A stretch of 64,000 nucleotides of DNA from Chroococcidiopsis thermalis PCC 7203. GTDB lineage: Bacteria > Cyanobacteriota > Cyanobacteriia > Cyanobacteriales > Chroococcidiopsidaceae. Made by a program: the position numbers and the translations under genes. The DNA lies in the NCBI RefSeq assembly GCF_000317125.1, contig NC_019695.1:2778336-2842335 (forward strand). Reading direction: 5' to 3'. Shown here piece by piece: positions 1-35,825 of the stretch. How positions within the stretch are numbered: position 1 is the stretch's first letter; every line of letters starts with the position of its first letter. The notes beneath the pieces are model-generated. The model saw only the letters and a list, made by a program, of their open reading frames with translations, was not told where the DNA came from and searched no databases.

Positions 1-1120
1 CTCGTCCATCCCAAGTAAAATTATGTACTTCTTGAAAAGCACAGTCAGCAATAGTCTTAGCTAATAAAGGATTATTCAATAGAGTCTCTATTGCTAATTT
101 GAATGAGAGTGGTTCGTCAGGTTCTGCCAATAATGCATTTTCTCTATGTCGCAATACTGTTGCTATAGTCGGTAAAGCTGAAGCGACAATTGGTCTCTTA
201 GCAACCATATAATCAAATAACTTCAACGGACAAGTAGCTTCAGCCAGTTCCCAATACTTACTGGTAGGAAGAATTAGAATGTCTGCGGCATATAGATATA
301 ATGCTAGCTCAGATTGTGGTACGTGACCGAAAAATTGTATGTTTTGTAAATTCATCTGTTGACAAGTTGCTTTTACCCGGTTGATATCATCAATCCATCC
401 TCCTACTAAAACAAATTCACATTCTGGCATCAGACTAGCAGTTTTCAAAATTGTTGGTATGCCTTTATAATCGTACAAATGCCCTGAATATAAGATAATT
501 TGACTGTCTTGTTGTAAAGATAACTTTTGGCGGGCTAAAGATTTAGTTTGATAAGGAAGAAAATTTTTAATGTCTACGGCATTAGGAGCTACCAATGTTT
601 TTTCAGGAAGCAAACCATGATTTAAATAGTTCTCTGCAAGTTGAGGTAATGTGGTAACAACACCAAGTAAGTTCTTGTTATTGAATAACTTTTTGCATGT
701 ATAACTAAGTTTTTCTGAAACTGGTTCGTGCCATTCCCAAAGCACAGGTATACACATTCTTAGCAAAATTTCAACCACAGGAAACGAACGAGTATAAATT
801 AAGCAAGGAGCTTTAAAACAAGCATATAAAATAGCTAGTTTATAAAAGATAAAATTTTCATAATTTTGGGGAAAAGGATACTCGATCTTAATATGCAGCG
901 GTAGGCGAACTAGTTTAAATTTATGATGCAAACCATACCAAGCTTGAAATTCTGAGTCTATGCCTTTTAAAACTGAAAAAATATCTCCGCTAGTAACCAA
1001 TTCAAAATTTTCAACTTTTTGAAAAAAAGCCTGCGCCATTTTAGTAGTTTGAATTGAGTGAGCCATTTTTGATGGTAGGTTTCCTTTAGATACATAAATT
1101 AGAGATTTTAGCGTTTCCAT
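1..1120 (-). CDS. GT4-type glycosyltransferase (C-terminus cut by window edge)
   Basis: A reading frame open from the ATG at 1120 to the window edge, about 373 codons. The translation has features of GT-B retaining glycosyltransferases: a linker reading APNAVDIKNF, then ILYSGHLYDYKGIPTIL, then FFGHVPQSELALYLYAADI, and the donor-binding stretch PLKLFDYMVAKRPIVAS followed by ENALLAEPDEP. It probably transfers a sugar from a nucleotide-sugar to a surface polysaccharide or lipid acceptor at the cytoplasmic membrane. It lies just downstream of a second glycosyltransferase on the same strand, 140 bp away, which suggests an exopolysaccharide locus continuing past the left edge. The family is clear but the substrate cannot be told. 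Confidence 0.85.
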   Translation of the reverse strand, partial: METLKSLIYVSKGNLPSKMAHSIQTTKMAQAFFQKVENFELVTSGDIFSVLKGIDSEFQAWYGLHHKFKLVRLPLHIKIEYPFPQNYENFIFYKLAILYACFKAPCLIYTRSFPVVEILLRMCIPVLWEWHEPVSEKLSYTCKKLFNNKNLLGVVTTLPQLAENYLNHGLLPEKTLVAPNAVDIKNFLPYQTKSLARQKLSLQQDSQIILYSGHLYDYKGIPTILKTASLMPECEFVLVGGWIDDINRVKATCQQMNLQNIQFFGHVPQSELALYLYAADILILPTSKYWELAEATCPLKLFDYMVAKRPIVASALPTIATVLRHRENALLAEPDEPLSFKLAIETLLNNPLLAKTIADCAFQEVHNFTWDGR

Positions 1121-1260
1121 TTTACTTTTTTTGATAGGTGGTTTTTTGATGATGCCAATGATTAGTACATGTAAAACCCATATACTATTACTCGTATTTT
1201 CATGCTTAACCTTTCGCTTTGATAGCACTAGTATATATAATATTTGCGATTGCAAAAACA

Positions 1261-2430
1261 CTAGTTAAATCGAGTCACTTCTTTTTTTGGAAGATTGTTA
1301 GTTGCTTTTGCTAAAACTTCAGACACAACCTCTGTGTATCGAGCAAGACTGAATGTCTCCAATACTTTTTCACGAGTTTGCTTCCAGTCTACAGAATAAG
1401 CCGAACCGCTAGCGATCGACAAAATTGATTCAGCAATCGACTCAGGTGTGTTTTCGCAAGTCCATAGCTCTGTTTCTGGATTAAAAAACTCTCTCAAAGC
1501 CGGAGAATTCATGGTTAATGTAGGTAATCCTAATGAGAGGGCTTCAATCAACTTATTAGGAAGAGCATGATACGCCTTATCTGTATTACCAAAAATACCT
1601 AATGCTAGATCGCAATAATTAACTAGATATTGAGGTAAGGAACCATTAATAAAGTTTAAGTCTTTCCTTAGAAAAACTATAGATTCAAGATGATATGACC
1701 GAACTTTTTCTACATAATCGTAAAAAGCTTTATTGTCTATACCAAAGAAGTTACAAGTAAAATGCAAGTTTCTTTCTCGCAAAATTCTTATTGCTTGTAA
1801 TATGTTATCCAATCCATGTAAAGGAATAAATGTTCCCCACCAACAAATATTTAATTTACCATCTTGCATCCAGCTTCTGTTGGGGAGCAAACAAGAAACA
1901 TTACACAGAGGAGCTATATAAACTTTTTTTCTGTCAATATCAGTATTCAGAATCTGTTCCCAGTAAGTTAACTCTTGATTAGAGCTATGGATGAGATAGT
2001 CTGATTTCTTTAACGCTAGTATATCTTTTTCAATATATGATTTAGCGAGTTTGCTTCCATCACCAACTCTTTTTCTGTCCCTCACTTCAGTATCGTAAAG
2101 CGAGATATACATTTCAACTATGACTTTTTTCCTAAAAAGCTTTGCTGCAAAGATGGTACTTTTGATGAAAATAGTATTCATTGGTAATAAGTAAATTACA
2201 TCCGTAAACGCAGCTTTTATTAAAAGTTCAATCCAGTAAAACTTAGTTAATACTTTTTCAATTAACGAGCTTTGCATACTTAAGTTTATATAATAAAAAC
2301 TAGGACATAATTGAGAAACAAAATAATTTTTGGAACTAGATAGAAACTCGATGAGAGCTTGAGAACGACGATCTACGCGAGAAATATTGCCACAGAGCAA
2401 AACCTTGGCTTGATTGATGGGTGCTAGCAT
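1261..2430 (-). CDS. GT4-type glycosyltransferase
   Basis: 389 residues. The C-terminal half has the GT-B pattern: NICWWGTFIPLHGLDNILQAIRIL, then a donor-site loop KLIEALSLGLPTLTMNSPALREFF with the conserved E-A-L-x-x-G-x-P arrangement. The N-terminal half is AT-rich and divergent, as is usual for the acceptor domain. It probably acts at the cytoplasmic membrane in exopolysaccharide or glycolipid assembly together with the glycosyltransferase downstream. Both genes have lower GC and fewer HIP1 sites than the rest of the window, as is common for polysaccharide loci exchanged between strains. The sugar specificity is unknown. Confidence 0.85.
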   Translation of the reverse strand: MLAPINQAKVLLCGNISRVDRRSQALIEFLSSSKNYFVSQLCPSFYYINLSMQSSLIEKVLTKFYWIELLIKAAFTDVIYLLPMNTIFIKSTIFAAKLFRKKVIVEMYISLYDTEVRDRKRVGDGSKLAKSYIEKDILALKKSDYLIHSSNQELTYWEQILNTDIDRKKVYIAPLCNVSCLLPNRSWMQDGKLNICWWGTFIPLHGLDNILQAIRILRERNLHFTCNFFGIDNKAFYDYVEKVRSYHLESIVFLRKDLNFINGSLPQYLVNYCDLALGIFGNTDKAYHALPNKLIEALSLGLPTLTMNSPALREFFNPETELWTCENTPESIAESILSIASGSAYSVDWKQTREKVLETFSLARYTEVVSEVLAKATNNLPKKEVTRFN

Positions 2431-2471
2431 TGAAGTAATATTTTTGAGAATTGAACTATTGGCGAAAATAC

Positions 2472-2756
2472 ATGAAACTATTTTTTAAGTACCGTGTTTT
2501 ATTTTTGCTTGAAACGTTGAAATGTCTCACTTTAAATAGTGAAAAAAATGAGCCAACTTTTGTAATAATTTTGTTAGTGCAAGCTGTATTTCAACAATTG
2601 CATCTATGCAGGGATGAAAGACGTAGCTTAATAGAAATTAAATATCATGAAAAACTCGAATTGCTACTTTGTAAATTGCAACATATTATCCAGGCTTTCA
2701 TACTGTCTAATGAAACTTCCGACTTAACTAACAGTATGTACTTTTTTGCACGATAA
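2472..2756 (+). CDS. Small hypothetical protein (doubtful)
   Basis: An open frame of 94 residues from an ATG at 2472 (a TTG at 2451 would add seven), divergent from the neighbouring glycosyltransferase. The product starts with basic and hydrophobic residues (MKLFFKYRVLFLLETLKCL), then has a hydrophobic stretch VIILLVQAVFQQL and a helical, leucine-rich remainder. I recognise no family and see no good ribosome binding site. The local AT-richness makes a chance frame less likely but not excluded. Confidence 0.3.
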   Translation: MKLFFKYRVLFLLETLKCLTLNSEKNEPTFVIILLVQAVFQQLHLCRDERRSLIEIKYHEKLELLLCKLQHIIQAFILSNETSDLTNSMYFFAR

Positions 2757-3295
2757 ATATTTCAGACTCTGACTGGTGTTGCTTAAGTGCACTCTTAGTG
2801 TCTTCTCTCACAATCCATAACGCCACGATCTATAACGCCCATAGCGCTACTTTACTTGTATTAATAATTTAGTCTTGATAGTTAAATTAGTCAAACGAAA
2901 CCCTACCGAATAATGTTTTTTAATACCATAAATTTAATAATTATATTTCTGCTTTATCATCATGTTCAGTTATAAGTCAGTTTTTGTCAATACATAAAAG
3001 TTACAGAAAAGTTCAGGACAAGGAGCGAAATTGTCTTTACAAATATGCAAAACGCAAACATCAAACACAAGACAAGGAATAGGCTCCATCTTACTATTCC
3101 GCTTTGTGAACTACGGTTTACTGGTGCTAGCACTGCTCGATCTCCTAGAGATACTCGTCCCCATGCGCTTGCTAAATTCAGTGGAATTTTTGTGACTAGC
3201 ACCGTTGTTAGTGCTTGAAACTTTGCGGCTTCAAATCAAAATGGATGCTCGCACCCAATTGTCAATCTTGTTTTATTACAATTCCTTAACCTTTA
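2757..3295. other. Gene-free stretch
   Basis: About 540 bases with no convincing gene. A 71-codon frame on the minus strand has no recognisable family or ribosome binding site. I see no clear repeat or hairpin here. Confidence 0.5.
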
Positions 3296-3640
3296 ATGCA
3301 GCTTGAAGATATTTATCAATATTTTGCCAATCCTCCAGAGATTTATCTTTGCCAAGAGCAAGCAGTTTGTTATATCCTGTCGGTCTTGCTTGAGGGTGAA
3401 TCTTATGGCTCTGGATTGATTCAAAAGCTCGAACGTGAAGAGTCTCGCTATCGCCTCTCCGATACCGTGTTGTATGCAGCGCTGAAATTTCTCGAAGATG
3501 AAGGAGCGATCGCGGGGTACTGGCAAAAACTAGAGGGTCGCGGTCGTCCCCGACGAATGTTTCGGCTCAATCACCAATGGCAAGATGAAGCACGAAAGCT
3601 AGCAAAATTATGGAGCGATAGCATCACCAAATATAAATAA
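3296..3640 (+). CDS. PadR-family transcriptional regulator (Pex-like)
   Basis: 114 residues. The region from about residue 20 to 100 is a PadR winged helix: AVCYILSVLLEGESYGSGLIQKLE, the recognition region SRYRLSDTVLYAALKFLEDEGAIAGYW, and the wing GRGRPRRMFRLN. PadR proteins bind DNA as dimers, usually repressing a nearby or stress-related gene. In Synechococcus the PadR protein Pex modulates the clock gene kaiA, and small cyanobacterial PadR proteins often resemble it; whether this one is a Pex orthologue cannot be decided here. It stands alone, convergent with the HTH protein downstream. The ATG start gives a domain of the usual length. Confidence 0.85.
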   Translation: MQLEDIYQYFANPPEIYLCQEQAVCYILSVLLEGESYGSGLIQKLEREESRYRLSDTVLYAALKFLEDEGAIAGYWQKLEGRGRPRRMFRLNHQWQDEARKLAKLWSDSITKYK

Positions 3641-3694
3641 GTCAGCCTTTTAGGAGCAGAACGCCTCTGCCGCGGGATAGCTGGGCGATCGCTT

Positions 3695-5248
3695 CTACGA
3701 TTTCATCTCCAATTTTTCAAGTAATTTAGGCAGATCCTTTTGAGATACTTGGCGATGCTCGGTTTCGATCGCATCAACCCAAGATATACTTTTCCCCATC
3801 GTTGCGGCAAAGAAAGCCCTCGACCAGCCTTTAGCTTTTCTAGCTTCTCTAATCGCAGCACCAGATGGCGGCTGTTGTTTGGGACGTTCCACGCCTCTAA
3901 GCTGGTTTGGCGATTTGGCAATCTCTGTCAACGCTGCTTCTGGTAAATCGAATCGCCATGTAGTATCTAAAAGCTGGCTCCAGAAGCCAATTGGTCTTTT
4001 CGCACCATCGTTATTTAACAACCACGCAGAACCAGTTTCTACCTCGACTCGCCATCCAGCCGCTTCAATTACTTTCAAGTCAGTCGCCAAATCGTCAGCT
4101 AGTTGCCGTCGTAGTTGCCGATCTTGCTCTGCTAGCGCAATTTTAGCCATACCATACGCAATTTGCATCAGAGATTTGCCGGAAAAGACTTTGCGGCATC
4201 CTGGCTTGACTTGAAAAATCAGCCAAATTAGCATTCGAGCTGCACCAGCATTTTGCTTACCAATGCTAAACAGCGTTTGTACTGTTTTCTTGGTAATAAC
4301 TCCCGTATGGTAATAGTACTCAGACTTATTTAAAAAGTACTTCGCCCACAATCCAGGTTGAACGATGACTTTTAAACCTGTCAGCTTCGGATTGCCTGCC
4401 TTATCTGTCTCAAAATCTCTTGCAACATTGACATTCCAGATTTTTAAATCGGCTACGGTAAAGGCTCCTACCTTGCCTTGTTTTTCCCAAACTACGTGAG
4501 CTAATATCTGTGCCGGCTGTCGTACCAGGTCATACAGAATTGTCAGTTGCTCATGTCTGCATAAATCTCTACGTCTGATTAATCCGCTGTATTCCAGCAG
4601 TTGTTTATCATCTAATAGAAACTCACTTTGCCACGGATTATGCAGATTTGCAGCAGCGGCGCAATAAATTAAATGAATAGCGCCTGCTCTAGGATCGAAT
4701 CGATCTATGACAGCTAAAGCTGCTGACTCAGATATGGTGTCAGGAGACAAGTTTTCTAAATTGTCAGTGACATAGTAAGAGATCGTGCCTTTTTTGCCAT
4801 CAGCTGCTTTTTCATAGCTCAAATTGTTTTGGGTTTCGGTCTTCCAGGGTAGATCGCGCTTTTGAGATAACACTTCTGCCACGCCATGCAACAAGAGTGA
4901 CAAAGCGGCAAGATTCGTCTTGCCATCTGGAAACAGAGAAGCTTTCTTGAATGGTTTGGTTGGAGATTTCAGCTGCCTAGACTTCAGAAGAATCTTTTTG
5001 ACAGTCCCCAATTTACTTGTCTGAGGTGATGTGGTAGTTGATTTTGTAGCGATCGTGTCTTCTCGGTCTACTTCGGTCTTGCTTGTGTCATTTCGCCGAA
5101 GAATAACTGTTTGTACTGCCAGTTGAAGCAGACTTCCAAGCCGATTACGCAGTAATTCTGGTAATTTCATTTCTTGCTTGGTATACCGATCGCATTTATC
5201 GTATTTTTTGCTCTTGCTGAAAACGCGAATTATCGCATCTCCATACAA
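3695..5248 (-). CDS. Unrecognised protein with C-terminal HTH domain
   Basis: 517 residues; a second ATG at 5170 would remove 26 residues. The N-terminal 120 residues are basic and Ser/Thr-rich. A globular middle includes ILAHVVWEKQGKVGAFTVADLKIWNV and QPGLWAKYFLNKSEYYYHTGVI. The last 60 residues look like an XRE-type helix-turn-helix (AIREARKAKGWSRAFFAATM followed by SISWVDAIE). The general plan, a long winged-helix-like body plus HTH, recalls cyanobacterial plasmid replication initiators, but I cannot point to a diagnostic motif. It stands alone, with a repeat-rich 820-bp region upstream. It could equally be a regulator of a lost mobile element. Confidence 0.65.
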   Translation of the reverse strand: MYGDAIIRVFSKSKKYDKCDRYTKQEMKLPELLRNRLGSLLQLAVQTVILRRNDTSKTEVDREDTIATKSTTTSPQTSKLGTVKKILLKSRQLKSPTKPFKKASLFPDGKTNLAALSLLLHGVAEVLSQKRDLPWKTETQNNLSYEKAADGKKGTISYYVTDNLENLSPDTISESAALAVIDRFDPRAGAIHLIYCAAAANLHNPWQSEFLLDDKQLLEYSGLIRRRDLCRHEQLTILYDLVRQPAQILAHVVWEKQGKVGAFTVADLKIWNVNVARDFETDKAGNPKLTGLKVIVQPGLWAKYFLNKSEYYYHTGVITKKTVQTLFSIGKQNAGAARMLIWLIFQVKPGCRKVFSGKSLMQIAYGMAKIALAEQDRQLRRQLADDLATDLKVIEAAGWRVEVETGSAWLLNNDGAKRPIGFWSQLLDTTWRFDLPEAALTEIAKSPNQLRGVERPKQQPPSGAAIREARKAKGWSRAFFAATMGKSISWVDAIETEHRQVSQKDLPKLLEKLEMKS

Positions 5249-5572
5249 ACATATCTCGGATTCAACGATATTTTCCTACCTAATTTGGTAGACCTTGCGG
5301 AGTTTATTGAAGTATTAATGACAGGAATGCTAACTAAGTGAAAGTGTGCGAGTAAATCCGATCTATCAAAAGGTATAGTCTGAAAGTAGTACTACTAAAA
5401 GTGGGCGATCGCATAAGTGCCGTCTTCATCAGCAGATTTGAGCCGATTGGATTTAGTGTAGTTCTAAAGTACTAGTGTCGTCTCACTTTTTCCAAAACAG
5501 GTTGAATCAATTTGCTTTAAACAGCATCAAAATCTTAGTGAGCAAGAATCTTACAACTTTACATTTACTACC

Positions 5573-5646
5573 ATAGCAGTGCTAAATGATTTGTAAAGTA
5601 GGCTTCTAGCCTGCTCCACGTTCATGAATCAAATAGGGTTGCTATA
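5573..5646 (+). repeat. MITE-like dispersed repeat, copy A (internally shortened)
   Basis: Begins TAGCAGTGCTAAATGATTTG, passes through TAGGCTTCTAGCCTG, lacks the second arm of the central hairpin seen in the other copies, then continues CTCCACGTTCATGAATC and ends GGGTTGCTATA. The outer ends are inverted repeats (ATAGCAG and TTGCTAT). Related copies are at 9291-9382 and 13629-13711. Confidence 0.8.
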
Positions 5647-5651
5647 GCACT

Positions 5652-5709
5652 TAGTCACACTTTTGCTAGAAACAAGTCACACTTTTGCTAGAAACAAGTC
5701 ACACTTTTT
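5652..5709 (+). repeat. Short tandem direct repeat, about 2.5 copies
   Basis: The unit AAGTCACACTTTTGCTAGAAAC (22 bp) occurs two and a half times without gaps. A related sequence, TGTCGTCTCACTTTTTCCAA, occurs about 180 bases upstream near 5475. Multiple short direct repeats next to a 5'-TGT terminus are typical of Tn7/Tn5053-like transposon ends, where each repeat is a transposase binding site. No transposase gene is present here, so this reading is inference. Confidence 0.6.
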
Positions 5710-6071
5710 CGTTATAGGGCTTAGATTTAAAATACTTACATTAAAATCTTACATTTTCAGCTCAAGCTAAAAATGTAAGGGCTATTGAATCGAGCGAATA
5801 AGATATTTTTCTAAATCTACGGTTTTAGAGATAGCTTCAAAGTAAAATCAGTGTAAATGAAGTAATAAAAAACCTTGCAGCCTGTAAACTTTAAGGAATG
5901 TTACTCAATTAAAACAGAGATTACTCGCCATAAAAAAGTCAAACATCTATCTGTATGAGTAGTGAAAAGTTCAAACTTTGATTCTGTGGATAGGTGAAAA
6001 GAATGTAATTTTGATGGCTTAATATTGGGTGACTGTTAATCATGAATTATTTCTAAGCGGAGAAGAAAGTT

Positions 6072-6953
6072 ATGCCATTACTAAGCATTAGCGATTTCGA
6101 TACAGATTATCAGCGTACCTTTGAAGGAAACGACATCAAAGGTATGGATGTTTACGGTGAAGGAGATGGGGAAAAGTTTGGTACAGTAAAAGATATTTTA
6201 GTAGACGAACAAGGTAATTTTCGGTATTTTGTTATCGACGTAGGATTCTGGATTTTTGGTAAAAAAGTACTACTGCCAGTTGGTCGCGCTCGGATCGATC
6301 GCAACGCTCATCGCGTCTATGCCAACGGTTTGACTAGAGAGCAAGCGGATCGCTTACCCGAATATACAGAAGGTATGACAGCAGACTACGATTACGAAGA
6401 ACGGGTAAGAGGAGTTTATCGTACAGAAGCTTCTTTAGATGCATCAGCACCTCTAGACTCAGCGTCTACTGCTGCGATGATGGGTACTGCTACGCCAACT
6501 AGCTATAACCGCGACACTTACACTTACGAACATGACAAAGATTTATACGATACAAGCACTCATAGCGATCGCACCATTAAACTCTATGAAGAGCGGTTGA
6601 TTGCCAGCAAACAGCGCCGCAAAACTGGAGAAGTTGCGATCGGCAAGCACGTTGAAACTGAGACAGAACGAGTTTCAGTTCCAATAGAAAAAGAGCGCGT
6701 CGTGATTGAAAGAATTACCCCACCCGATGCAGGTAGAGCTGTTGCACCTGGCGAAGTTGACTTCCATGAGGGTGAAGTTGCCCGTGTAGAAGTGTATGAA
6801 GAAGTTCCAGATATTCATAAAGAAGCCTTTGTTAGAGAAGAAATCAGAGTCAAGAAGGTCGTAGAACAGGAAACTGTGGAAGCACAAGAAACGATTCGCA
6901 GGGAAGAATTAGATATCGATACTGATGGTCGTCCAGTTATCAGTGACCAGTGA
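6072..6953 (+). CDS. PRC-barrel and DUF2382 stress protein
   Basis: 293 residues in two parts. Residues 20-100 form a PRC-barrel: GEKFGTVKDILVDEQGNFRYFVIDVGFWIFGKKVLLPVG. Residues 165-285 form a DUF2382 (YsnF-type) domain: IKLYEERLIASKQRRKTGEV, HVETETERVSVPIEKERVVI, and a glutamate/arginine-rich end. Proteins of this plan, such as AvaK of Anabaena akinetes, accumulate under stress or dormancy; the molecular role is unknown. It heads a same-strand run of six genes. A paralogue of exactly the same length (after start correction) is at 29768-30649. Confidence 0.9.
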   Translation: MPLLSISDFDTDYQRTFEGNDIKGMDVYGEGDGEKFGTVKDILVDEQGNFRYFVIDVGFWIFGKKVLLPVGRARIDRNAHRVYANGLTREQADRLPEYTEGMTADYDYEERVRGVYRTEASLDASAPLDSASTAAMMGTATPTSYNRDTYTYEHDKDLYDTSTHSDRTIKLYEERLIASKQRRKTGEVAIGKHVETETERVSVPIEKERVVIERITPPDAGRAVAPGEVDFHEGEVARVEVYEEVPDIHKEAFVREEIRVKKVVEQETVEAQETIRREELDIDTDGRPVISDQ

Positions 6954-7134: not shown

Positions 7135-7572
7135 ATGAGTTTGATTAAAAAGTTTCGGAAAATTGCGACTGTGCTGCTCTTAGTATTATTTGTGACCACA
7201 ACTACAGCCTGTAGCAGTGCAGTTCAAGCCAAACAGCCAACAACAATGCTACCAACAGCTAGCCGGAGTGCAGATTACTCGCAAATAGCAAGAGGAAATA
7301 CTCAAGCCGGACAAGATTTTGGTAGTTGGGTCGTGCAAACGGCTAGGGGAATGGTTAAAGATGCCTATGTGCGCGACAACAATAAATTAGGTGTTGTCAT
7401 CTCACCTGAAGTTCGCCCAAACGAAGTTAAGCCATTAGCAAAATCTCTAGCTCAAGGTTTTCGCCGTAATTTCCCCAACCAAGATTTGACTGTGTTGATG
7501 TACGCACCGGATAAAAAGCTAATTTTGACAGCTAAGTACGACACTCAAACTAATCAGATTGAATACAAGTAG
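7135..7572 (+). CDS. Small lipoprotein of unknown function
   Basis: 145 residues. A basic start and hydrophobic core (KFRKIATVLLLVLFVTTTTA) lead to a lipobox with the lipidated cysteine at about residue 26 (TTAC-SSA), so the mature protein should be membrane-anchored. The rest includes DFGSWVVQTARGMVKDAYVRDNNKLGVVISPEVRPNEV and a C-terminal half resembling a small alpha/beta fold. The start is well supported by AGGAGG just upstream. It lies between the PRC-barrel gene and another unknown gene. I do not recognise a family. Confidence 0.8.
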   Translation: MSLIKKFRKIATVLLLVLFVTTTTACSSAVQAKQPTTMLPTASRSADYSQIARGNTQAGQDFGSWVVQTARGMVKDAYVRDNNKLGVVISPEVRPNEVKPLAKSLAQGFRRNFPNQDLTVLMYAPDKKLILTAKYDTQTNQIEYK

Positions 7573-7632
7573 GTCGTTGGTCATTTGTCATTAACTATGA
7601 ATGCAAATGGCGGTAGTAACAAGGAGAAAAAA

Positions 7633-8151
7633 ATGAGTAGTAGCGACAAATATAGAAAAGAAGTCATGAACGATCTCGCTCAAGGTAATGTAGAAAACCT
7701 TGACGCTCCCACAAATTTAGAGCAAGATTACGAAAATTTTGACGATTTTGCTCAACGCTCATCTCACGAAGAACGTCGCCGCTTATTCGGTCGCTCTTTC
7801 CACCCAGACCGAATTCCCACAAATCAGATGGAACCGGAATTGCAAAAAGCGATCGCCCAGATTAAACCAAATGAAAGAGATGATGTGGCGCGGGCTTTCT
7901 TCAAGCACTTAGGTAAAAGAGGACTGCACGATCGCGATTTAGAAAAGCAATTGGGGCTATCAACTCATCACGCCAGCCGGATGAATGCCGACGATGTAAG
8001 TAAATTAGCTGCATTTGCTTATCACAACCATCCCGATATTTTTCAAGAGGTATTAGCGGAACAACCTGCGTTCGTGAAATTCCTCAGCAATCCAATGGTC
8101 GGTGCTGCATTGGGTGCGATCGCGGCTAAATGGTTGGGTGGTCGTAAATAA
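7633..8151 (+). CDS. Hypothetical acidic/basic stress-cluster protein
   Basis: 172 residues from the ATG at 7633, chosen because AAGGAG lies six bases upstream; in-frame TTG and ATG codons at 7585 and 7597 lack such a site. The N-terminal 60 residues are charged and probably flexible (EVMNDLAQGNVENLDAPTNL). The middle is helical (NERDDVARAFFKHLGKRGLHDRDLEKQLGLS) and the C-terminus has a short hydrophobic, glycine/alanine-rich segment (PMVGAALGAIAAKWLGG) that could touch a membrane. No family recognised. The position suggests a stress role. Confidence 0.8.
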   Translation: MSSSDKYRKEVMNDLAQGNVENLDAPTNLEQDYENFDDFAQRSSHEERRRLFGRSFHPDRIPTNQMEPELQKAIAQIKPNERDDVARAFFKHLGKRGLHDRDLEKQLGLSTHHASRMNADDVSKLAAFAYHNHPDIFQEVLAEQPAFVKFLSNPMVGAALGAIAAKWLGGRK

Positions 8152-8184
8152 GAGAAAAAGTGTTTAGGTGTGAAGGAGTGAAGT

Positions 8185-9180
8185 ATGTCCGGGAGTGCAG
8201 ATTTATCCAAATTCAGCCAGTTGAGTTTGGGTGTAGCGATCGCTTTTTTTGGTGTGGGGGTACTACCCCAACAACTTCTGGCTGAGGAACAGAGGCTTAA
8301 GGCTTCAACCGAGAAAGAGGCGGTAGCTCTAACGAGTAGCACGGCTCAAAACGAAGACATATCTTACGCTGCCGCCGATCTGCAACCGCAGGATGAATCT
8401 ACCCAGAAGCTACGACTGGCGCAGCGAGAAGTTGACATCGATACTTTCTGTCGCTCGTATCCCTACAATTCTCGTTGTGCCGATTACCAACCACCGGAGC
8501 AACGTCAGAAGCCAAAAGAGAAGCTGAGTGAAACTTTAACCGAAAAGCAGCCGCGAAGTGGCTTTGCACTCACAGGTAAAGCTGGCACTTTAGGATTTGG
8601 ATTAGAAGGAGTTGGGGCTATTTCTCCTAATTTTAACGGTCGCTTGGGAGTGAATTACTTTGATTTTGGGATTGACACCGAGCAAAGCGATATTGACTAC
8701 GATGCTGACGTGCAGCTATTCAGTGTTTCGGCACTTTTAGACTGGTATCCGTCGAAAAGAAGTGACTTTAGGATTACAGGCGGTTTATTCTACAACAACA
8801 ACAAAGTTGACGCAACCGCCCGCTCAACTGAAACTTTGGATATTGCAGGTGTAGAGTTTCCTGCTTCAGCCGTGGGTCAGCTAGAAGGAGAACTGACATT
8901 TCCTAACACAATTTCTCCTTACGTTGGCATTGGTTACGGTAATCCAGTCAAACGCGATCGCGCATTCAGTTTTTCGATTGATTTAGGCGTTTTATTCGGG
9001 GGTGCGCCAGAAGTCGATCTGAGTGCATCAGGACCAATAGCAGGACCAGCGTTACAACTGCCAGTAGTAGGTTCGTTATTAGAAGATGCGATCGAACAGG
9101 AAGAAGACGATATCGAAGACGATTTGAGCGACTTCAAGATCTATCCCGTGCTGACTATTGGCGTTTCCTACCACTTCTAA
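8185..9180 (+). CDS. Outer-membrane beta-barrel protein
   Basis: 331 residues. The N-terminus is a likely signal peptide (LSLGVAIAFFGVGVLPQQLLAEE). Residues 75-115 hold CRSYPYNSRCADY, a paired-cysteine segment seen in some cyanobacterial barrel proteins. From about residue 120 alternating polar and hydrophobic strands follow (FALTGKAGTLGFGLEGVGAI, NGRLGVNYFDFGI, FRITGGLFYNNNKV, ISPYVGIGYGNPV), ending in SYHF; a terminal phenylalanine is the usual barrel-assembly signal. It should sit in the outer membrane. Function is unknown. It is part of the stress cluster and is followed by a MITE-like repeat. Confidence 0.85.
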   Translation: MSGSADLSKFSQLSLGVAIAFFGVGVLPQQLLAEEQRLKASTEKEAVALTSSTAQNEDISYAAADLQPQDESTQKLRLAQREVDIDTFCRSYPYNSRCADYQPPEQRQKPKEKLSETLTEKQPRSGFALTGKAGTLGFGLEGVGAISPNFNGRLGVNYFDFGIDTEQSDIDYDADVQLFSVSALLDWYPSKRSDFRITGGLFYNNNKVDATARSTETLDIAGVEFPASAVGQLEGELTFPNTISPYVGIGYGNPVKRDRAFSFSIDLGVLFGGAPEVDLSASGPIAGPALQLPVVGSLLEDAIEQEEDDIEDDLSDFKIYPVLTIGVSYHF

Positions 9181-9290
9181 TCGGTTCTGCTTGCTGATGA
9201 TTGGATAGGAAAGCTCGCATAGCATTCCGATAAATTCTGAAAAATCAACCAGAAATCATCAGAGATTTAACAATTCTTCTGCTGCTCTAA

Positions 9291-9382
9291 TATAGCAATC
9301 CTATTTGATTCATGAACGTGGAGCAGGTTTCTAGCCTGCGGCAGGCTAGAAACCTACTGTACAAATCATTTAGAACTGCTAT
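9291..9382 (-). repeat. MITE-like dispersed repeat, copy B (full length)
   Basis: 92 bp with ends TATAGCAAT and its near inverse AACTGCTATA. The centre is a strong hairpin built from GGTTTCTAGCCTGC and GCAGGCTAGAAACC. It lies in the 380-bp gap after the outer-membrane protein gene and is inverted relative to copies A and C. I see no other element in this gap. Confidence 0.85.
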
Positions 9383-9561
9383 ATCTGATTTCAGTAAAAT
9401 ATTTCAGAAAATATTTCTATCAGTTTAGATACACAACGAGAGAAGTCAAAAATACATAACTTGCGGTATAAACGGCTAAACAAGCTATCAGTTAGCTTGG
9501 GAAATATATTGCCTCAGATGTAGCAGTATGAGCGTGCGCCGAATTCAAACGAGGTAGTCAT

Positions 9562-12500
9562 ATGTGGGAAATAGCAGAAATAGCAGGGCATGGTTTCAAT
9601 AACTATTGGCTAGCACAAATTATTACGGAAGAAATTCTCACTCCCGAAGAAGCTGCCGCAGTCTTTTCGGGTCCACAATTCTTAGTGGCATTGTTTGCGG
9701 GTGTAGTGATGGCATTTGCTTTCCAACTCCTGTTAACTAACTTTACAGTCGCTTTAGGTATTTCCGCGTTAGGTGGGGGGGATGCCGACGATACAGATAA
9801 TTTAGGTAGCACAGTTCGTAAAATCTCGACCGCAGTAGGTCTTTTGGCTTTAACAACTGGCGGCGTGGCTCTATTCGTTGCCAGTTTTTTAGCTGTGAAA
9901 CTTAGTTTAGTCAGCAGTGCGGTATTAGGGGCAATTATTGGGGTAGTTATTTGGTCTACCTATTTTTCTATCCTGTTGTGGTTAGGCTCAACTACAGTTG
10001 GTTCGCTGATCGGTTCTTTAGTCAGCACTGCTACCTCTGGCTTTCAAGGACTGGTAGGGACAGCAACCGCAGCTTTAGGCGCTAATGTAGCCAAGAATCA
10101 AGCTGTATCCACAGCTGAAGCGATCGCCGCCGCAGTTCGGCAAGAATTCACTACAGGACTCGACTCAGACGCGATCGGTAAGACTCTACAAAAGTCTTTG
10201 GGAAATTTACAACTACCGCAACTGAATTTAGACGAAATTCGCGGTCAGTTTGAAAATATCCTCAAAAACTCCGATCTAAAATCTGTGGCTGATAGCGACG
10301 TATTACGTAACATTAACCGCGAGACATTTGCAGATTTAGTCAGCGATCGCACGGATTTATCCAAACAAGATGTGAATCGGATTGTAGACCAGTTGCAAGG
10401 CGTTTGGCAGCAAGCGATCGGTACAGGCGAAGTAGATCCGCAAGCTCAATTAAGTCAATTTATTAAAGAAGCTTCTCCCGAACAACTCAATTCCAGCGAA
10501 CTCAGCGAAAAACTGGAACAACTGGTACAAACAAGTCAATCGAATGGGAAGCAAAGCAACGGTTGGGGAAATCGAGCTGTGCAATTGGGTGTGAGCGCCC
10601 TCACCACCGCAGTACTCGAAAGAACCAATCTGGCTGGAATTGATGTGGAAAATATTTCTGGTCAACTGCAAAAATTCATCGATAAGTTGCCAGAAGTAGA
10701 CCGAGACAAGATTTCCGGTCAATTACAGCAATTTAAACAGCAGGTGCAACAGCAAGCGCAAAAACTACCAGAATTGCCAAACAGCGCCATCCGCAGCGAT
10801 GTAGACGATTATCTGCTGAAATCTTACCCGTGGCATCTCAACCGCGAAACGATTAAGCAAGAATTTAGAGACGTTATCTACGATCCGCAAGCAGATCCAG
10901 GTAAAGTTAAACAAGAGCTAGAGCAGCTAGATAAAGATTATTTCACACAAAAACTGAATCAACGCGGCGATCTACTTGAGAACAAAGTCCAAGAAGTTGC
11001 CCAGCAATTAGAAGAGATCCGCACCGAGATTTTAGCTACGGTTTCTGCTGGTGCGTCACAAGCGCAATCGCAAGACCTGCGTAGCCGTGTAGAAAATTAT
11101 CTGCGTTCGACTGGTAAGGAAGAACTAAATCCTGAAGGAATTGAGCGCGACTTCCAAACTCTTCTAGAAGATCCAGAAGCGGGTGTGGAAACACTCAGCG
11201 ATCGCCTATCGCAATTTGACCGCGATACTTTGACTCAACTGCTCAAACAACGCCAGGATATTAGCGAAGAGGAAGCAAATAATATTGTCGGTCAACTCGA
11301 AAGCACTCGCGATCGCGTTGTCAACAAAGCCAAAGAATTGCAAGAACAGGCGCAAGCTAAAGCAGCAGAAGTAAGGCAGAAAGTAGAAGAGTATCTTCGC
11401 AATACTAATAAAGAAGAACTCAACCCTGAAGGCATCGAGCGCGATTTCCGCACCTTGCTAGAAGATCCGCAAGTGGGAATTTCTGTATTACGCTCAAGAT
11501 TATCGCAGTTCGATCGCGAAACGTTAGTAGCATTACTATCGCAACGTCAAGATTTGAGCGAGGAGCAAATAAATCAAACTCTCGATCGCTTAGAATCAGT
11601 CCGCGATAATATCTTACAAGCACCGCAACAGCTCACAGGCAAGGCCAAAGAGCAATACGACAAAACGACAACGGCGATTTCTAAATATCTGCGTAACACC
11701 AACCTAGAAGAACTCAATCCTGAAGGCATCCAGCAGGATTTACGTAAAGTATTGGAAGATCCTCAAGAGGGAGCCATAGCATTACGCGATCGCTTGTCTC
11801 GCGTCGATCGGGAAACCTTGGTGAAACTACTGTCGCAACGGCAAGACTTGAGTGAAGAACAAGTCAACCGCGCGATCGACTCTGTAGAAGAAGCAATTAA
11901 CAGCATTGTGCAAGCACCACGCCGTTTGGCAAGCCGCGTCCAACAGCAGGCGATCGATTTTGAGACAACTTTAGAAGGTTACTTGCGGAATACGAATAAA
12001 GAAGAACTCAATCCCGATAGCATTAAGCGCGACTTGCAACTATTGCTTAACGATCCTCGTGCTGGATTAGGTAGTTTGGGCGATCGCCTCTCGCACTTCG
12101 ATCGTTCGACGATTGTGGCTTTACTGTCTCAAAGAGAAGATATTTCGGAAGAAGAAGCAAATCAAATTGTCGATCGCATCCTGACTGTACGTAACTCTGT
12201 TGCCGAGCAAATTGAGAAAATTCAGCGTAGCGTACAGTCTGTTATCGACTCAGTTTTCGATCGCATTCGCAGCTACCTCAACTCGCTAGAGCGTCCCGAA
12301 CTCAACTACGAGGGAATTCAGCAAGACTTCACCACCTTGTTTGACGATCCGCAAGCGGGATTTGATGCTCTACGCAATCGCTTGAGCCAATTCGATCGCG
12401 ACACACTAATCGCCGTGTTGAGTTCTCGCGAAGATATTTCCCCAGCCGATGCCGAGCGGATTGTGGGTCAAATTGAAGGTACGCGCGATCGAGTGCTGCA

Positions 12501-23588: not shown

Positions 23589-23711
23589 CTACAACAGAAG
23601 AACTTTACGGTTTGGCAGGGGGTACAGGTGAACGTACCTGTGCAGGAGACGTAGCGCGATCGCGCCCAGAATTGCAGTTAAGGCTAAACTGAAGAATGCT
23701 CCTTGCTTCAT
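23589..23711 (-). CDS. Possible single-span membrane microprotein
   Basis: 40 codons starting MKQGAFFSLALTAILGAIAL, with one hydrophobic segment and a basic C-terminal part (RLLHRYVHLYPLPNRK). It ends 32 bases before the methyltransferase pseudogene on the same strand. The ribosome site is weak. No family is recognised. Confidence 0.35.
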   Translation of the reverse strand: MKQGAFFSLALTAILGAIALRLLHRYVHLYPLPNRKVLLL

Positions 23712-23784
23712 AGTTGCTTGCTTTCAATATCCTGCTTCTAGTTTTCAAACCAAAAATGATGCCAACATGACAACTCGACAGTTC

Positions 23785-24546
23785 TTACAATCCTTCAAAG
23801 TTGTAACCAACACCGATCGTCAGTCCTACACTAGTACTGTCAAAGAAGCCGACATTCACACCAGCATTTGCTGTCAGTCGATCGCCAATTGGTACGTCAG
23901 CACCAGCAGTGAGCATTGGTCCTACATCGCTGTTGTCTCCTGTGGCGATCGCTAAACCACCTCCTACGTAAGGTGCGAAACTAGAGATTGCTTCTGTCGC
24001 TGCTCCTGTAGGTTGCACGGTAAAGTCATAAGTAATTGGAATCAGAAAGGTAGTGTCATCCCCAATGACAACAGCAGGACGAGCAGAGACAGCTTCGGTG
24101 AATCCGATTTTGCTGATAACTGTGAAGTTACCGATACCCAAAGCCGTGTCGCCACCGCCCAGACCGATGTTACCGCCAACTCCAACATAGCTGGAACCAC
24201 CACGAGTAGCTCTACCTGGTTCAATTGCACCTGGAGTGGGCTGAGTTGGTGTAGTCTGAGTTGGTGTAGTTGCAGGTGGTTGTGTAGTTGGGGTAGTCGG
24301 TTGAGTGCTGGGATATGTCGGCTCAGTAGTAGGAGTTGTGGGTTGAGTCGTAGGATAAGTAGGGTCAACTTGAGCTACTACAGAATTTGTAGGTTCATGT
24401 CTCAGTGCAGCCGCTGAAGTTGAAACTTTCGTATTTTCTGCGTTGTTACTAGCAGTCTGAGCTTGAGCTGACAGTCCGCCTGCCAATACAGCTACGGTGG
24501 CGATCGCGATGATAGTAGAAATCTGCTGAATAGGTTTGGTGTTCAC
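23785..24546 (-). CDS. Outer-membrane beta-barrel-like protein with Pro/Thr-rich linker
   Basis: 253 residues. A signal peptide (IIAIATVAVLAGGLSAQAQ) is followed by a low-complexity linker rich in PTTQPT (about 60-110). The C-terminal domain begins SSYVGVGGNIGLGGG and continues through FTVISKIGF, FLIPITYDF, FAPYVGGGLAIATGDNSD, and ends VGLTIGVGYNFEGL. Its strand pattern and paralogy with 33881-34573 suggest a small barrel or barrel-like surface protein. Function is unknown. The linker is encoded by a short tandem repeat. Confidence 0.82.
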   Translation of the reverse strand: MNTKPIQQISTIIAIATVAVLAGGLSAQAQTASNNAENTKVSTSAAALRHEPTNSVVAQVDPTYPTTQPTTPTTEPTYPSTQPTTPTTQPPATTPTQTTPTQPTPGAIEPGRATRGGSSYVGVGGNIGLGGGDTALGIGNFTVISKIGFTEAVSARPAVVIGDDTTFLIPITYDFTVQPTGAATEAISSFAPYVGGGLAIATGDNSDVGPMLTAGADVPIGDRLTANAGVNVGFFDSTSVGLTIGVGYNFEGL

Positions 24547-24976
24547 GAGCGGTCCCTCAAATGTTTCCAGAAGTAGCTAACAGTGCCATTAACTATGGCA
24601 ACTGATTTGAAAATTACCTGACTTTTTGTTTAGCTATCTTTAGCATCACGAACAAAAATGATGAGAAAATGACAACAAATGATAAAGATTTCAGTTTTTA
24701 GAATATTTGATGAGCCATGAAATGAGGAGTGTGAAGCTCTAATCTTATTTTTAAGTTTTGACTTGTCTTCGCCAGAAAAAATCTCTAACACCAGATATAT
24801 GTCTTTAGAGACGCGAGGGTAATTTATGTTTACTTCTCGCTCAGATTCGACCACAGTAATATTCAAGATAATTCTTTAGAACGGGTTTTAAAACTCCCTT
24901 TCTCAAGATAAAGATATAGAAAAATTTAAGTTTCGATTTCTGTCTAAAGATTGTGGTAAGCGGCTCGGAATTGAGT
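24547..24976. other. Gene-free stretch
   Basis: About 430 bases with only a weak AT-rich frame on the minus strand (24630-24866), no ribosome site and no family. No repeat recognised. Confidence 0.5.
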
Positions 24977-27332: not shown

Positions 27333-27732
27333 AACTTTACAGCTTACTACCGCTTTTTTACAAGATAAAAAAATAAGTTTCTGTCTTTTTTAGAAACTTT
27401 AATAAACATGAAAATCACAATAAAAATAACTGTCTTGGGTAAGAAGTCGCTCTGTATGAAGAGTGACTTATTTATTGAAATTAAGTAAGCGTTAAAATAT
27501 TTGCTACTAAAGTATGTTGATTAGCCTGACCGCCAATTGTGACTGAAAAATGACAAACATCTAACGGCTAGTAATAGATAATATGTAATTGACAATTGCT
27601 AGTATCGTTACCAGAGTAGAGAGCGATCGCCGCTCGATTACTCAACGCCTACGTAAAAAGCTAGAAAGAACGCACCCTGAAAGACCTGAGCAAAAGTTAG
27701 GTTAATGACACGATCGCATAAGGAGAACTATC

Positions 27733-27939
27733 ATGGTTTGGGACAAAATAGATCGCTCTACACCAGACGAGCAAAGCAACAGTTCTAAAGCCCCCCAAGG
27801 TACACCTGGAGAAAGTTCTTACCATCCACCCATCGGCAAGCCACTGACGGATTGGGAGCAACCAGATTATGACGAACTCGATCTATGCATGGAAGTCACA
27901 ACATATATTTACCAATGGCAACGATCGGGGCTGGGGTAA
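27733..27939 (+). CDS. pqqA: PQQ precursor peptide PqqA (extended form)
   Basis: 68 residues ending LCMEVTTYIYQWQRSGLG. The E54-V-T-T-Y58 spacing is the Glu-xxx-Tyr motif that PqqE cross-links in PqqA. The first 50 residues are hydrophilic with many Ser, Pro, Asp and Glu and would act as a leader. Usual PqqA is 22-40 residues, so this one is long. AAGGAG lies seven bases before the ATG. pqqD and pqqE follow on the same strand. The peptide would be bound by PqqD, cross-linked by PqqE in the cytoplasm, then cut out. PqqB and PqqC are not in the window. Confidence 0.8.
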   Translation: MVWDKIDRSTPDEQSNSSKAPQGTPGESSYHPPIGKPLTDWEQPDYDELDLCMEVTTYIYQWQRSGLG

Positions 27940-27997
27940 GAAGTCAGAAGTCGATTGACACTCCTCTAATCCCTTGTCTCTTTGTCTTCGCTCCTCC

Positions 27998-28276
27998 ATG
28001 TCTAACATGAAAAACCACTCGCGACCGCATTTAGCCCAAGGTGTACGCTTGCAGTGGGACGAGTTAAGACAACAACATTTACTTCTGATGCCAGAAGGCG
28101 CGCTGATGTTAAATTCTACGGCGGCGGCTGTATTAGAGCTGTGCGATGGTAGGCGTACCATTGGGGCGATCGCGCAGCGGTTAAAAACACAATATCGAGG
28201 CGAGACACTAGAAGATGACGTGCGCCGCTTGCTGATTCGGCTCAGCGCGCGGGGACTATTAGTCGAGCGCGATTAA
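27998..28276 (+). CDS. pqqD: PQQ biosynthesis chaperone PqqD
   Basis: 92 residues. The conserved PqqD pattern is present: RPHLAQGVRLQWDELRQQHLLLMPEGALMLNSTAAAVLELCDGRRTI, and the C-terminal winged-helix part DDVRRLLIRLSARGLL. PqqD is the RRE-type peptide-binding protein that presents PqqA to PqqE. The start is uncertain; ATGs at 27998 and 28007 and an upstream codon are possible and none has a strong ribosome site. It is 27 bases upstream of pqqE, which fits an operon. Confidence 0.88.
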   Translation: MSNMKNHSRPHLAQGVRLQWDELRQQHLLLMPEGALMLNSTAAAVLELCDGRRTIGAIAQRLKTQYRGETLEDDVRRLLIRLSARGLLVERD

Positions 28277-28303
28277 TCGTGTCGATGCCAAGGAGAAGAA
28301 TTA

Positions 28304-29440
28304 ATGTCAGAATTCTTACCAGTCAAGACGACGGATAGACCTTTGACTCTGATTGCAGAGTTAACCTATCGCTGTCCCCTGAGTTGTCCCTACTGCTCTA
28401 ATCCACTCAACTATCACGATAAACATTATCGTCAGGAACTTGCTACTGATGATTGGCTGCGGACGATCCGGCAAGCCCGAAACTTGGGTGTATGGCAATT
28501 GGGTTTTTCTGGTGGCGAACCACTGTTGAGACAGGATTTAGAGGTTTTAGTCAAAGCAGCCGCCCAAGTTGAACTTTATACGACTTTGGTTACTGCTGGT
28601 ACGTTGTTGACATTAGAACGAGCTACGCAGCTTTGTCATGCCGGACTTAACCACATCCAAATTAGCATTCAAGATAGTCGCGCTGCCCAGTCTGACTATC
28701 TTGCTGGCATTCGTTGTTTCGAGCAAAAACTCGCTGCAGCACGAATTGTCAAAGATTTGGGTTTACCACTGACGCTGAACTTTGTCTTGCATCGGCAAAA
28801 CATCGAGCGCCTGGAGGAGATGTTAGAGTTATGCGAGCAATTACAAGCAGATCGGGTAGAACTGGCACAGACTCAATACTACGGTTGGGCATTGCATAAT
28901 CGTGCTGCTTTACTGCCAACACCCCAACAATTAGAACGAGCAGCGCAGATTGTAGCCGTGGCTAAAAAAAGCCGCATTTGCCCGATGGGAATTTTATATG
29001 TCATTCCCGACTATTACGAAGATTATCCCAAACCCTGTATGGGTGGTTGGGGTCGTCGGGCTTTGGTTGTGGCTCCCCACGGGGATGTCATGCCTTGTCA
29101 AGCCGCCAGTTCTATTCCTGAGATAGAATTTGCTAACGTCCGCGATCGCGATTTAGATTGGATTTGGTTTGAATCGCCTGCTTTCAATCGCTTTCGAGGA
29201 ACCGACTGGATGAGCGAACCTTGTCGCAGTTGCGATCGCGCCCAAATTGACTTTGGTGGTTGCCGTTGCCAAGCACTACTGTTAACAAATAACGCTGCTG
29301 CAACCGATCCAGTCTGCCATTTATCACCCCATCATGACTTAGTAGTCACAGCCAGAGAAGAGGCATTAGAACAATCTCTGCCTTTGGTACATCGCTCGTC
29401 GGTTGCATCGCTCGGCGTAAAGGAGGCGTACCATAAGTAG
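28304..29440 (+). CDS. pqqE: PQQ biosynthesis radical SAM enzyme PqqE
   Basis: 378 residues. The radical SAM cysteines are C24, C28 and C31 (TYRCPLSCPYCSNPLNY). The glycine-rich FSGGEPLLR follows at about 69. The C-terminal SPASM region carries auxiliary cluster ligands: CMGGWGRRALVVAPHGDVMPC, and RGTDWMSEPCRSCD with GGCRCQALL, then DPVCHLSPHHD. These are PqqE-specific sequences. The enzyme joins Glu and Tyr of PqqA by a C-C bond, the first step of PQQ synthesis. AAGGAG precedes the ATG by about nine bases. It is the last gene of the cluster and is followed by an IS remnant. Confidence 0.93.
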   Translation: MSEFLPVKTTDRPLTLIAELTYRCPLSCPYCSNPLNYHDKHYRQELATDDWLRTIRQARNLGVWQLGFSGGEPLLRQDLEVLVKAAAQVELYTTLVTAGTLLTLERATQLCHAGLNHIQISIQDSRAAQSDYLAGIRCFEQKLAAARIVKDLGLPLTLNFVLHRQNIERLEEMLELCEQLQADRVELAQTQYYGWALHNRAALLPTPQQLERAAQIVAVAKKSRICPMGILYVIPDYYEDYPKPCMGGWGRRALVVAPHGDVMPCQAASSIPEIEFANVRDRDLDWIWFESPAFNRFRGTDWMSEPCRSCDRAQIDFGGCRCQALLLTNNAAATDPVCHLSPHHDLVVTAREEALEQSLPLVHRSSVASLGVKEAYHK

Positions 29441-34721: not shown

Positions 34722-35825
34722 CTACTCCCGATTCCCCAAAGTAGCGACTGCGGCAGCGAACTGCTGCGAAATGAAAGGTAAGATCTGACGATTTTTACTG
34801 TGGGGGCGACCTTCGGTAAATACAACTAATAAGTATGGTCGCAAATTAGGAATTTCTATATAAGCAGCATCGTGCCGGACTTGACTCGTCCAGCCAGCTT
34901 TTGCCCACAGTTGCGCTTCTGGGGGTAATCCGCCACCTAGAAAACCCGTAATTTGGTCTTCGTCATTATCTGTCGGTAAATCGGCAGGATTAAGGCTGCG
35001 CTTGAGTAAACTCATCATCGCCTGCGATCGCCCGCTAGACACCGCTACCCCGCCTACAATACTGTGTAACAATCTTGCTGTGGCATTAGTCGTCAGCATA
35101 TTGCGATTGTCCATTAACTCCCCCACAAACGCTCGTTCGCGACCATAGGGACCATCACACCAAGTTTTTTGATTGACGTTGATTGTCGCCATCTCCTCCC
35201 AACCGAGAGATTGATAGTAGCGATTGACGATGTTGCGTTGAGTTTTCCAAGTCTCAAAAGGCGCGGCTGGGAGTTCGGGACCGCTAGTCGTACCGCTGAG
35301 AACGTCAACGATTAAACTAGTTGCATCATTGCTAGAATCAGCGATCGCATCGCGCATGGCGCGTTCGATCTCCGGCGAAGACCCAACCATGCCTTTTTCT
35401 AACCATTCTTGTATCGCCACCAAATAAAATAGTTTGACGATACTAGCAGGATAGATTCGTTCCACACCGCGATAGCTATACCCCCGCACTGGAAAATTCC
35501 AGAAGGCTTGGGGACTCAAAGCACCACCTGTATTGACGGAGACTGGAGGATCGTAGACAATCCACGTCAGAGCAATTTGGTTACGTGCCAAAGTGGGAAA
35601 TTCTGCCCAAGTTGCTTCTAAAACGCGATCGCCCAGATTTTCTAGTTGTTCGTCTTTGCGGAAAAAAAATGTCATAGCGAGGACAAGGGAGACAAGGAGG
35701 ACAAGGGAGACAAGGAGGACAAGGGAGACAAGGAGGACAAGGGAGACAAGGAGGACAAGGGAGACAAGGAGGACAAGGGAGACAAGGAGGACAAGGGAGA
35801 CAAGGAGGACAAGACTAATTCGCAA
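34722..35825 (-). CDS. Class A beta-lactamase-like serine hydrolase with repeat-encoded N-terminus
   Basis: 367 residues from a TTG at 35825, or 317 from the ATG at 35675. The core domain has the S-x-x-K motif in [25 protein letters not shown], and [12 protein letters not shown], placing it in the beta-lactamase/transpeptidase fold. The long form begins with about seven copies of SLVLLV, encoded by an 18-bp minisatellite, which would make a hydrophobic anchor. Which start is used is undecided: the repeat lacks stops in this frame whether or not it is translated. It could cleave beta-lactams or be a peptidoglycan enzyme. Confidence 0.82.
35678..35815. repeat. 18-bp minisatellite (about 7.5 copies)
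   Basis: Unit GACAAGGGAGACAAGGAG repeated almost without change. On the minus strand it encodes SLVLLV; on the plus strand it encodes a charged GDKED series that I reject as a gene. Related shorter runs occur at 52790-52818 and 58530-58570. Confidence 0.9.

Follow-up and report, generated by a model that had tools for sequence, protein, structure and literature searches.

Probable synthesis of pyrroloquinoline quinone by a conventional pathway with split genes in the cyanobacterium Chroococcidiopsis thermalis PCC 7203

We analysed a 64,000-nucleotide stretch of the Chroococcidiopsis thermalis PCC 7203 genome (hereafter the window), which lies on contig C1 (NC_019695.1). Three genes of the pyrroloquinoline quinone (PQQ) pathway follow one another on one strand at positions 27733-29440 of the window (C1:2806068-2807775), where a preliminary description made from the sequence had correctly placed and ordered them, and two further genes were found elsewhere on the contig. 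The features are as follows.

27733-27939, + strand: pqqA, precursor peptide of 68 aa with Glu54-Val-Thr-Thr-Tyr58 (TIGR02107 and PF08042 above cut-off; alignment).
28007-28276, + strand: pqqD, peptide chaperone, 89 aa counted from the ATG at 28007 (TIGR03859).
28304-29440, + strand: pqqE, radical SAM/SPASM enzyme, 378 aa (TIGR02109; structure 6c8v; residue table).
C1:3712875-3713774, same strand as pqqC: pqqB, 375 bits (cut-off 245), sole copy in the genome.
C1:3713841-3714494, same strand as pqqB: pqqC, 310 bits (cut-off 240), sole copy in the genome.

The identities of the three window genes were called with curated NCBIfam equivalog cut-offs; each gene passed one, pqqE by a wide margin. 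PqqA, which does contain the Glu-to-Tyr motif first read in it, scored 24.7 bits against TIGR02107 (cut-off 20) and 33.5 bits against PF08042 (cut-off 21.1), whilst PqqD scored 89.4 bits against TIGR03859 (cut-off 46) and 68.5 bits against a second PqqD model, NF002535, which is under its cut-off of 101. An alternative start for pqqD, a TTG at 27974 upstream of the ATG, would extend the protein to 100 aa. The score of PqqE against TIGR02109 was 513.9 bits (cut-off 381.35), with the next radical-SAM family at 121.2, and its closest solved structure is 6c8v, 'Coenzyme PQQ synthesis protein E' (E 6.6e-106). Its CxxxCxxC motif consists of C24, C28 and C31, a QxYxW motif occupies residues 191-195, and C245, C265, C307, C310, D316, C320, C322 and C338 are the presumed auxiliary-cluster residues; all of these are invariant in 20 of the 21 cyanobacterial rows (the readable ones, with L194 left out). 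The QxYxW triad is described as unique to PqqE in PMC10906245. PqqE thus scores as PqqE, and it also groups with other PqqE in a tree containing PqqE-scan sequences only.

The preliminary description had termed the cluster one without pqqB or pqqC. This is accurate for positions 27733-29440, but not for the genome (6.69 Mb in three contigs), where the two genes adjoin at C1:3712875-3714494 (locus L003), ~0.9 Mb from the window genes and both above cut-off; the first of the two explanations it had offered, that the later enzymes are encoded elsewhere, is therefore borne out. The closest solved relatives are 1otw for PqqC and 4z5y for PqqB. Contamination of the window was considered and rejected, as the contig that contains the window is 6.3 Mb long, in a genome of three contigs, and the same genes are present in two congeners and in G386, another genome of the family. 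Upstream of pqqBC and of a two-component system, L003 holds a run of genes (328-6755, - strand) for an AMP-binding enzyme, a UbiA prenyltransferase, a 303-aa protein without a Pfam match, a homogentisate-dioxygenase-like protein and an HPPD-like protein, which may constitute an aromatic or quinone-related cluster. An array of an 18-bp unit is found in the window at ~35675-35825, within the opening part of an ORF predicted at 34722-35825 (- strand), with related copies at L003 4338-4399.

PqqC scored above cut-off in four of the 19 genomes of the family, namely three of the window's genus (its own, G392 and G393) and G386; when the proteins of 10 selected genomes of the family were searched for PqqE, the same four came up. 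The genes are contiguous in the order A-B-C-D-E in G393, whilst G386 has A-B-C followed by D and E fused in a single frame of 459 codons (L066 9288-10667, - strand) that is above cut-off for both PqqD and PqqE. G392 carries A-B-C-D at one site and E at another; within the genus, the set is thus split in two of the three genomes, each time differently. Across the cyanobacteria we collected 21 pqq loci or genomes, 19 of which show both ends (G787 and G838, at contig ends, were left out); loci on the same contig were counted once (L068/L195, L071/L186 and L072/L191), four other pairs having been tested and found to differ. The E-x-x-x-Y motif proved to be conserved, being present in all 19 cyanobacterial PqqA sequences examined (EVT in 16, EIT in three). 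From the first ATG these peptides measure 52-68 aa, those other than our own mostly 52-64, with one reading of 93. The C-terminus of our own PqqA has five extra residues, RSGLG, where two congeners stop after WQ, the stop codon having been lost. Outside the cyanobacteria, PqqA candidates were found in 36 of 73 loci; counted from the nearest start they have 23-47 aa, and counted from the first ATG up to 82 aa. The remaining 37 loci gave no PqqA candidate with the pattern used. In the proteobacterial loci with a candidate the peptide has only 23-24 aa, compared with 68 here; that of Methylorubrum extorquens is given as 29 aa in PMC10906245.

Comparison with the intact G393 operon locates the break in the window as follows.

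27502-27949, + strand: pqqA with ~230 bp of upstream sequence, 95 % identical to G393 (L063 7512-7959).
27950-27990, + strand: junction at which pqqB and pqqC, present in G393 (L063 7960-9717), are absent; homology is found again from 27991.

The window matches G393 over 7512-7959 and 9718-11134, and the distant locus L003 matches it over 7964-9701. As the right flank of the pqqBC locus is common to our genome, G393 and G392, this locus was taken as the older site. It is here that G392 has its A-B-C-D. In our genome the site also retains a 47-bp remnant of the 3' end of pqqE (L003 11561-11607), and upstream of the lone pqqE of G392, in frame with it, are the first 22 codons of a second pqqA. 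Between our genome and G393, synonymous divergence (dS) was 0.15 for pqqA and 0.21 for each of pqqC, pqqD and pqqE, but 0.99 for pqqB; the pqqB of our genome differed from that of G392 by 0.92, whilst G393 and G392 differed by 0.33. The pqqE of G392 showed a dS of 0.60 from ours and 0.54 from that of G393. Six nearby genes, used for comparison, gave 0.08-0.39. Furthermore, when the distant locus was compared with G393 in 120-column windows, the ten that reach to the beginning of pqqC were 67-87 % identical, the four that follow 94-99 % and the final one 89 %; L003 is thus a mosaic, with pqqB from a diverged copy and pqqC from the other.

Taken together, the remnants and the uneven dS values indicate that the genus once had two diverged copies of the pqq genes, which would have recombined and each been partly lost, leaving one intact copy of each gene. 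This would account for the split, the reduction having taken different courses in different species. We hold this history with less assurance than the pathway itself. Either an in-place duplication or an import from a relative could have supplied the second copy, and the sequence of events is a reconstruction. If this history is correct, sister species of the genus would each have trimmed a doubled cofactor operon in a different way. An alternative, which concerns the history only, is that pqqB-pqqC (or pqqA and pqqD-pqqE) moved as single pieces with no earlier second copy. The pieces matching G393 are indeed nearly complementary, and short dispersed repeats occur near the joins; the pqqE remnant at the pqqBC site, the 5' end of another pqqA next to the pqqE of G392, and the dS values of 0.92-0.99 for our pqqB and 0.54-0.60 for the pqqE of G392 nevertheless point to two diverged copies, such that we consider a simple move unlikely. 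A stretch of the window (23656-24878) also occurs in the neighbourhood of the lone pqqE of G392. One two-component block is found beside pqqBC in our genome (L003 7103-9763) and near the lone pqqE in G392 (L064 1690-4385); the two pqq sites thus seem to have swapped flanks, which the two-copy history does not fully account for.

With all five core genes present, PQQ is very probably made by a complete, conventional pathway whose genes happen to be split, its chemistry being that of the known families. PqqD would present PqqA to PqqE, which would join Glu54 to Tyr58; the cross-linked Glu-Tyr pair would then be freed by a putative peptidase, and PqqB and PqqC, encoded ~0.9 Mb away, would finish the cofactor. 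That the pathway is instead decaying, with scattered genes and PQQ no longer made, is suggested by the scattering itself, the remnants and the lost pqqA stop codon, as well as by the lack of any match in the genome, at E 0.001, to the eight-bladed quinoprotein families PF01011 and PF13360 (controls matched in 4 and 11 of 14 genomes). Arguing against this, all five reading frames are open, and omega for the five genes is 0.04-0.32 in pairs of our genome with relatives. Moreover, each gene has been kept once in both of the differently split genomes, an outcome that random loss of five of ten copies gives in 32 of 252 ways per genome (independence assumed), and as such we regard decay as very unlikely. 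Least probable of all, and rejected, is a different cross-linked peptide made by a PqqE-like RiPP cluster: the length of PqqA (68 aa here and mostly 52-64 in other cyanobacteria, against 23-47 aa in the 36 non-cyanobacterial loci) and the separation of A, D and E from B and C would suit it, but pqqB and pqqC are present in the same genome with open frames, A to E stand together in relatives, PqqE exceeds the next family by 513.9 to 121.2 bits and E-x-x-x-Y is found in every one of the 19 PqqA. Thus, whilst the first explanation of the preliminary description has held, its second, a different cross-linked product, is left without support by the open frames, the purifying selection and the single operon of relatives. 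What we describe is a known pathway in a rare host, with an unusual split history, and not a new peptide product.

A candidate enzyme that uses PQQ belongs to the glucose/sorbosone dehydrogenases (GSDHs; PF07995), for which the genome has two matches, L005 (438.6 bits, cut-off 25) and L006 (78 bits). As PF07995 occurs in all 19 family genomes, its presence alone says nothing and was dropped as evidence. A GSDH gene does, however, separate pqqA from pqqB, or immediately precede pqqA, in 12 of the 19 whole cyanobacterial pqq loci, the seven without one being those of our genome, G392, G393, G386, Nostoc ATCC 43529, G869 and G903. L005, whose gene is located far from the pqq genes, shares 61.5-72 % identity with five copies from within operons and 93 % with its homologues in G392 and G393. 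Nearly its whole propeller aligns with 2g8s (E 6.2e-77), it also matches 7cdy, and part of the propeller aligns with the soluble glucose dehydrogenase (sGDH) 1c9u (E 5.6e-36); of these PQQ sugar dehydrogenases we take 2g8s to be of the E. coli type and 1c9u of the Acinetobacter type. L005 keeps the HFG and GHRN-QG stretches of the solved relatives, which presumably bind PQQ. It differs from these enzymes in its lipobox, which marks it as a lipoprotein, in the homologues in or beside cyanobacterial pqq operons, and in a score of 149.2 bits against TIGR03606, under the cut-off of 434.55, which places it outside that subfamily of PQQ-dependent dehydrogenases in the strict sense.

Among the family genomes, an L005-type GSDH is present in three of the four with pqqC and in one of the 15 without; G386 has pqq, yet the three proteins that match PF07995 there have low scores of 38-72 bits. 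For the family comparison 15 matches were aligned and weaker PF07995 matches left out; in the resulting tree the position of L005 among the in-operon copies is not separated, and it shares its group with the protein from G391 and with those of three pqq-negative genomes, which sit on a long branch. The association within operons is the stronger argument for a user enzyme than this pattern among family genomes. L005 is therefore likely to be a periplasmic lipoprotein that would oxidize sugars with the cell's own PQQ, although we are less sure of this than of the pathway. The GSDH of G391 (L150; C2:207884-208894) is of the L005 type and 73 % identical to it; G391 has no PqqC match, and the enzyme is possibly a user of PQQ from outside. 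L006, a distant GSDH relative 80 % identical to the gene divergent from the pqq operon of G386, on the pqqA side, was rejected as a candidate: it does not track pqq, being present in our genome but not in G392 or G393, with similar scores in pqq-negative genomes.

Compared with the PqqA-E pathway of M. extorquens, Klebsiella and Pseudomonas, the present one has the same five families above cut-off, the E-x3-Y precursor and the PqqE-specific residues; it differs in its cyanobacterial host, in its two loci 0.9 Mb apart and in having a PqqE of the cyanobacterial clade. A community study (PMC7367855) reports Microcoleus to be without a pqq operon and possibly reliant on cohabiting Proteobacteria for PQQ; this is likewise a cyanobacterium with candidate PQQ-dependent sugar dehydrogenases, whereas the present genome has its own pqqA-E. 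Against the supposition, in that study, that a cyanobacterium needs proteobacterial PQQ stands the presence of pqqA-E in 19 cyanobacterial loci or genomes, our own and 18 others. With a candidate user in or beside the operon in 12 of them, PQQ-dependent sugar oxidation becomes testable in cultured cyanobacteria. Other papers count, by keyword, one 'pyrroloquinoline quinone' annotation in a Leptothoe strain (PMC8225149), place a PqqD-family protein in a lasso cluster (PMC9332814) and name a cyanobacterial peptidase PqqE (PMC12341915); among the matches listed from open-licence PMC papers, no title or opening of an abstract had a cyanobacterial pqq operon. Tentatively, and as a possibility somewhat short of an even chance, we propose that scattered cyanobacteria are self-sufficient for PQQ, with a module of pqqA-E and a periplasmic lipoprotein sugar dehydrogenase that might feed electrons from external sugars to the respiratory or photosynthetic chain, or with PQQ shared with neighbours, and that the genus of PCC 7203 once had two diverged versions of this module side by side, which different species resolved in different ways.

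Such a cluster had been considered unusual for a cyanobacterium, and this holds for the samples searched: PqqE was above cut-off in one of 386 genomes of the phylum, and PqqC in two of 388 of the class and 16 of 388 of the order (8 of 149 genera), these being overlapping samples. The order sample includes the 19 genomes of the window's family, which supplied four of the 16; outside the family the count was 12 of 369. At E 0.001, PqqE matches were obtained in 357 of the 386 phylum genomes and PqqC matches in 50 of the 388 class genomes, nearly all below cut-off and presumably other radical-SAM and PqqC-like proteins. Named carriers among the matches listed are two Nostoc, Richelia, Mastigocoleus, Calothrix and a Pleurocapsales strain; in G597, which shares its genus with G544, PqqC is partial and lies at the edge of a contig. 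A tree of 85 PqqE proteins was built by a quick search, without a radical-SAM outgroup; as it draws on the best 80 contig-scan matches, it is not exhaustive. In it, the 12 rows of cyanobacterial type fall into a single starred clade (98). Their nearest neighbours are from Actinomycetota, with one Ktedonobacteraceae row, the deeper join having an SH-aLRT of 84 and no star; PqqE identity, among those best 80 matches, is 60 % to the best Actinomycetota row and 57 % to the Ktedonobacteraceae row, and three loci of these two groups have PqqA candidates of 40-47 aa. Finally, a pqq operon of the cyanobacterial type lies on a contig named Candidatus Gracilibacteria SU_1_2 (L072). In G868, which is from the same order as the window, there is a contig of equal length (L191) that shares the 200 bases tested, and the Gracilibacteria name therefore looks wrong.
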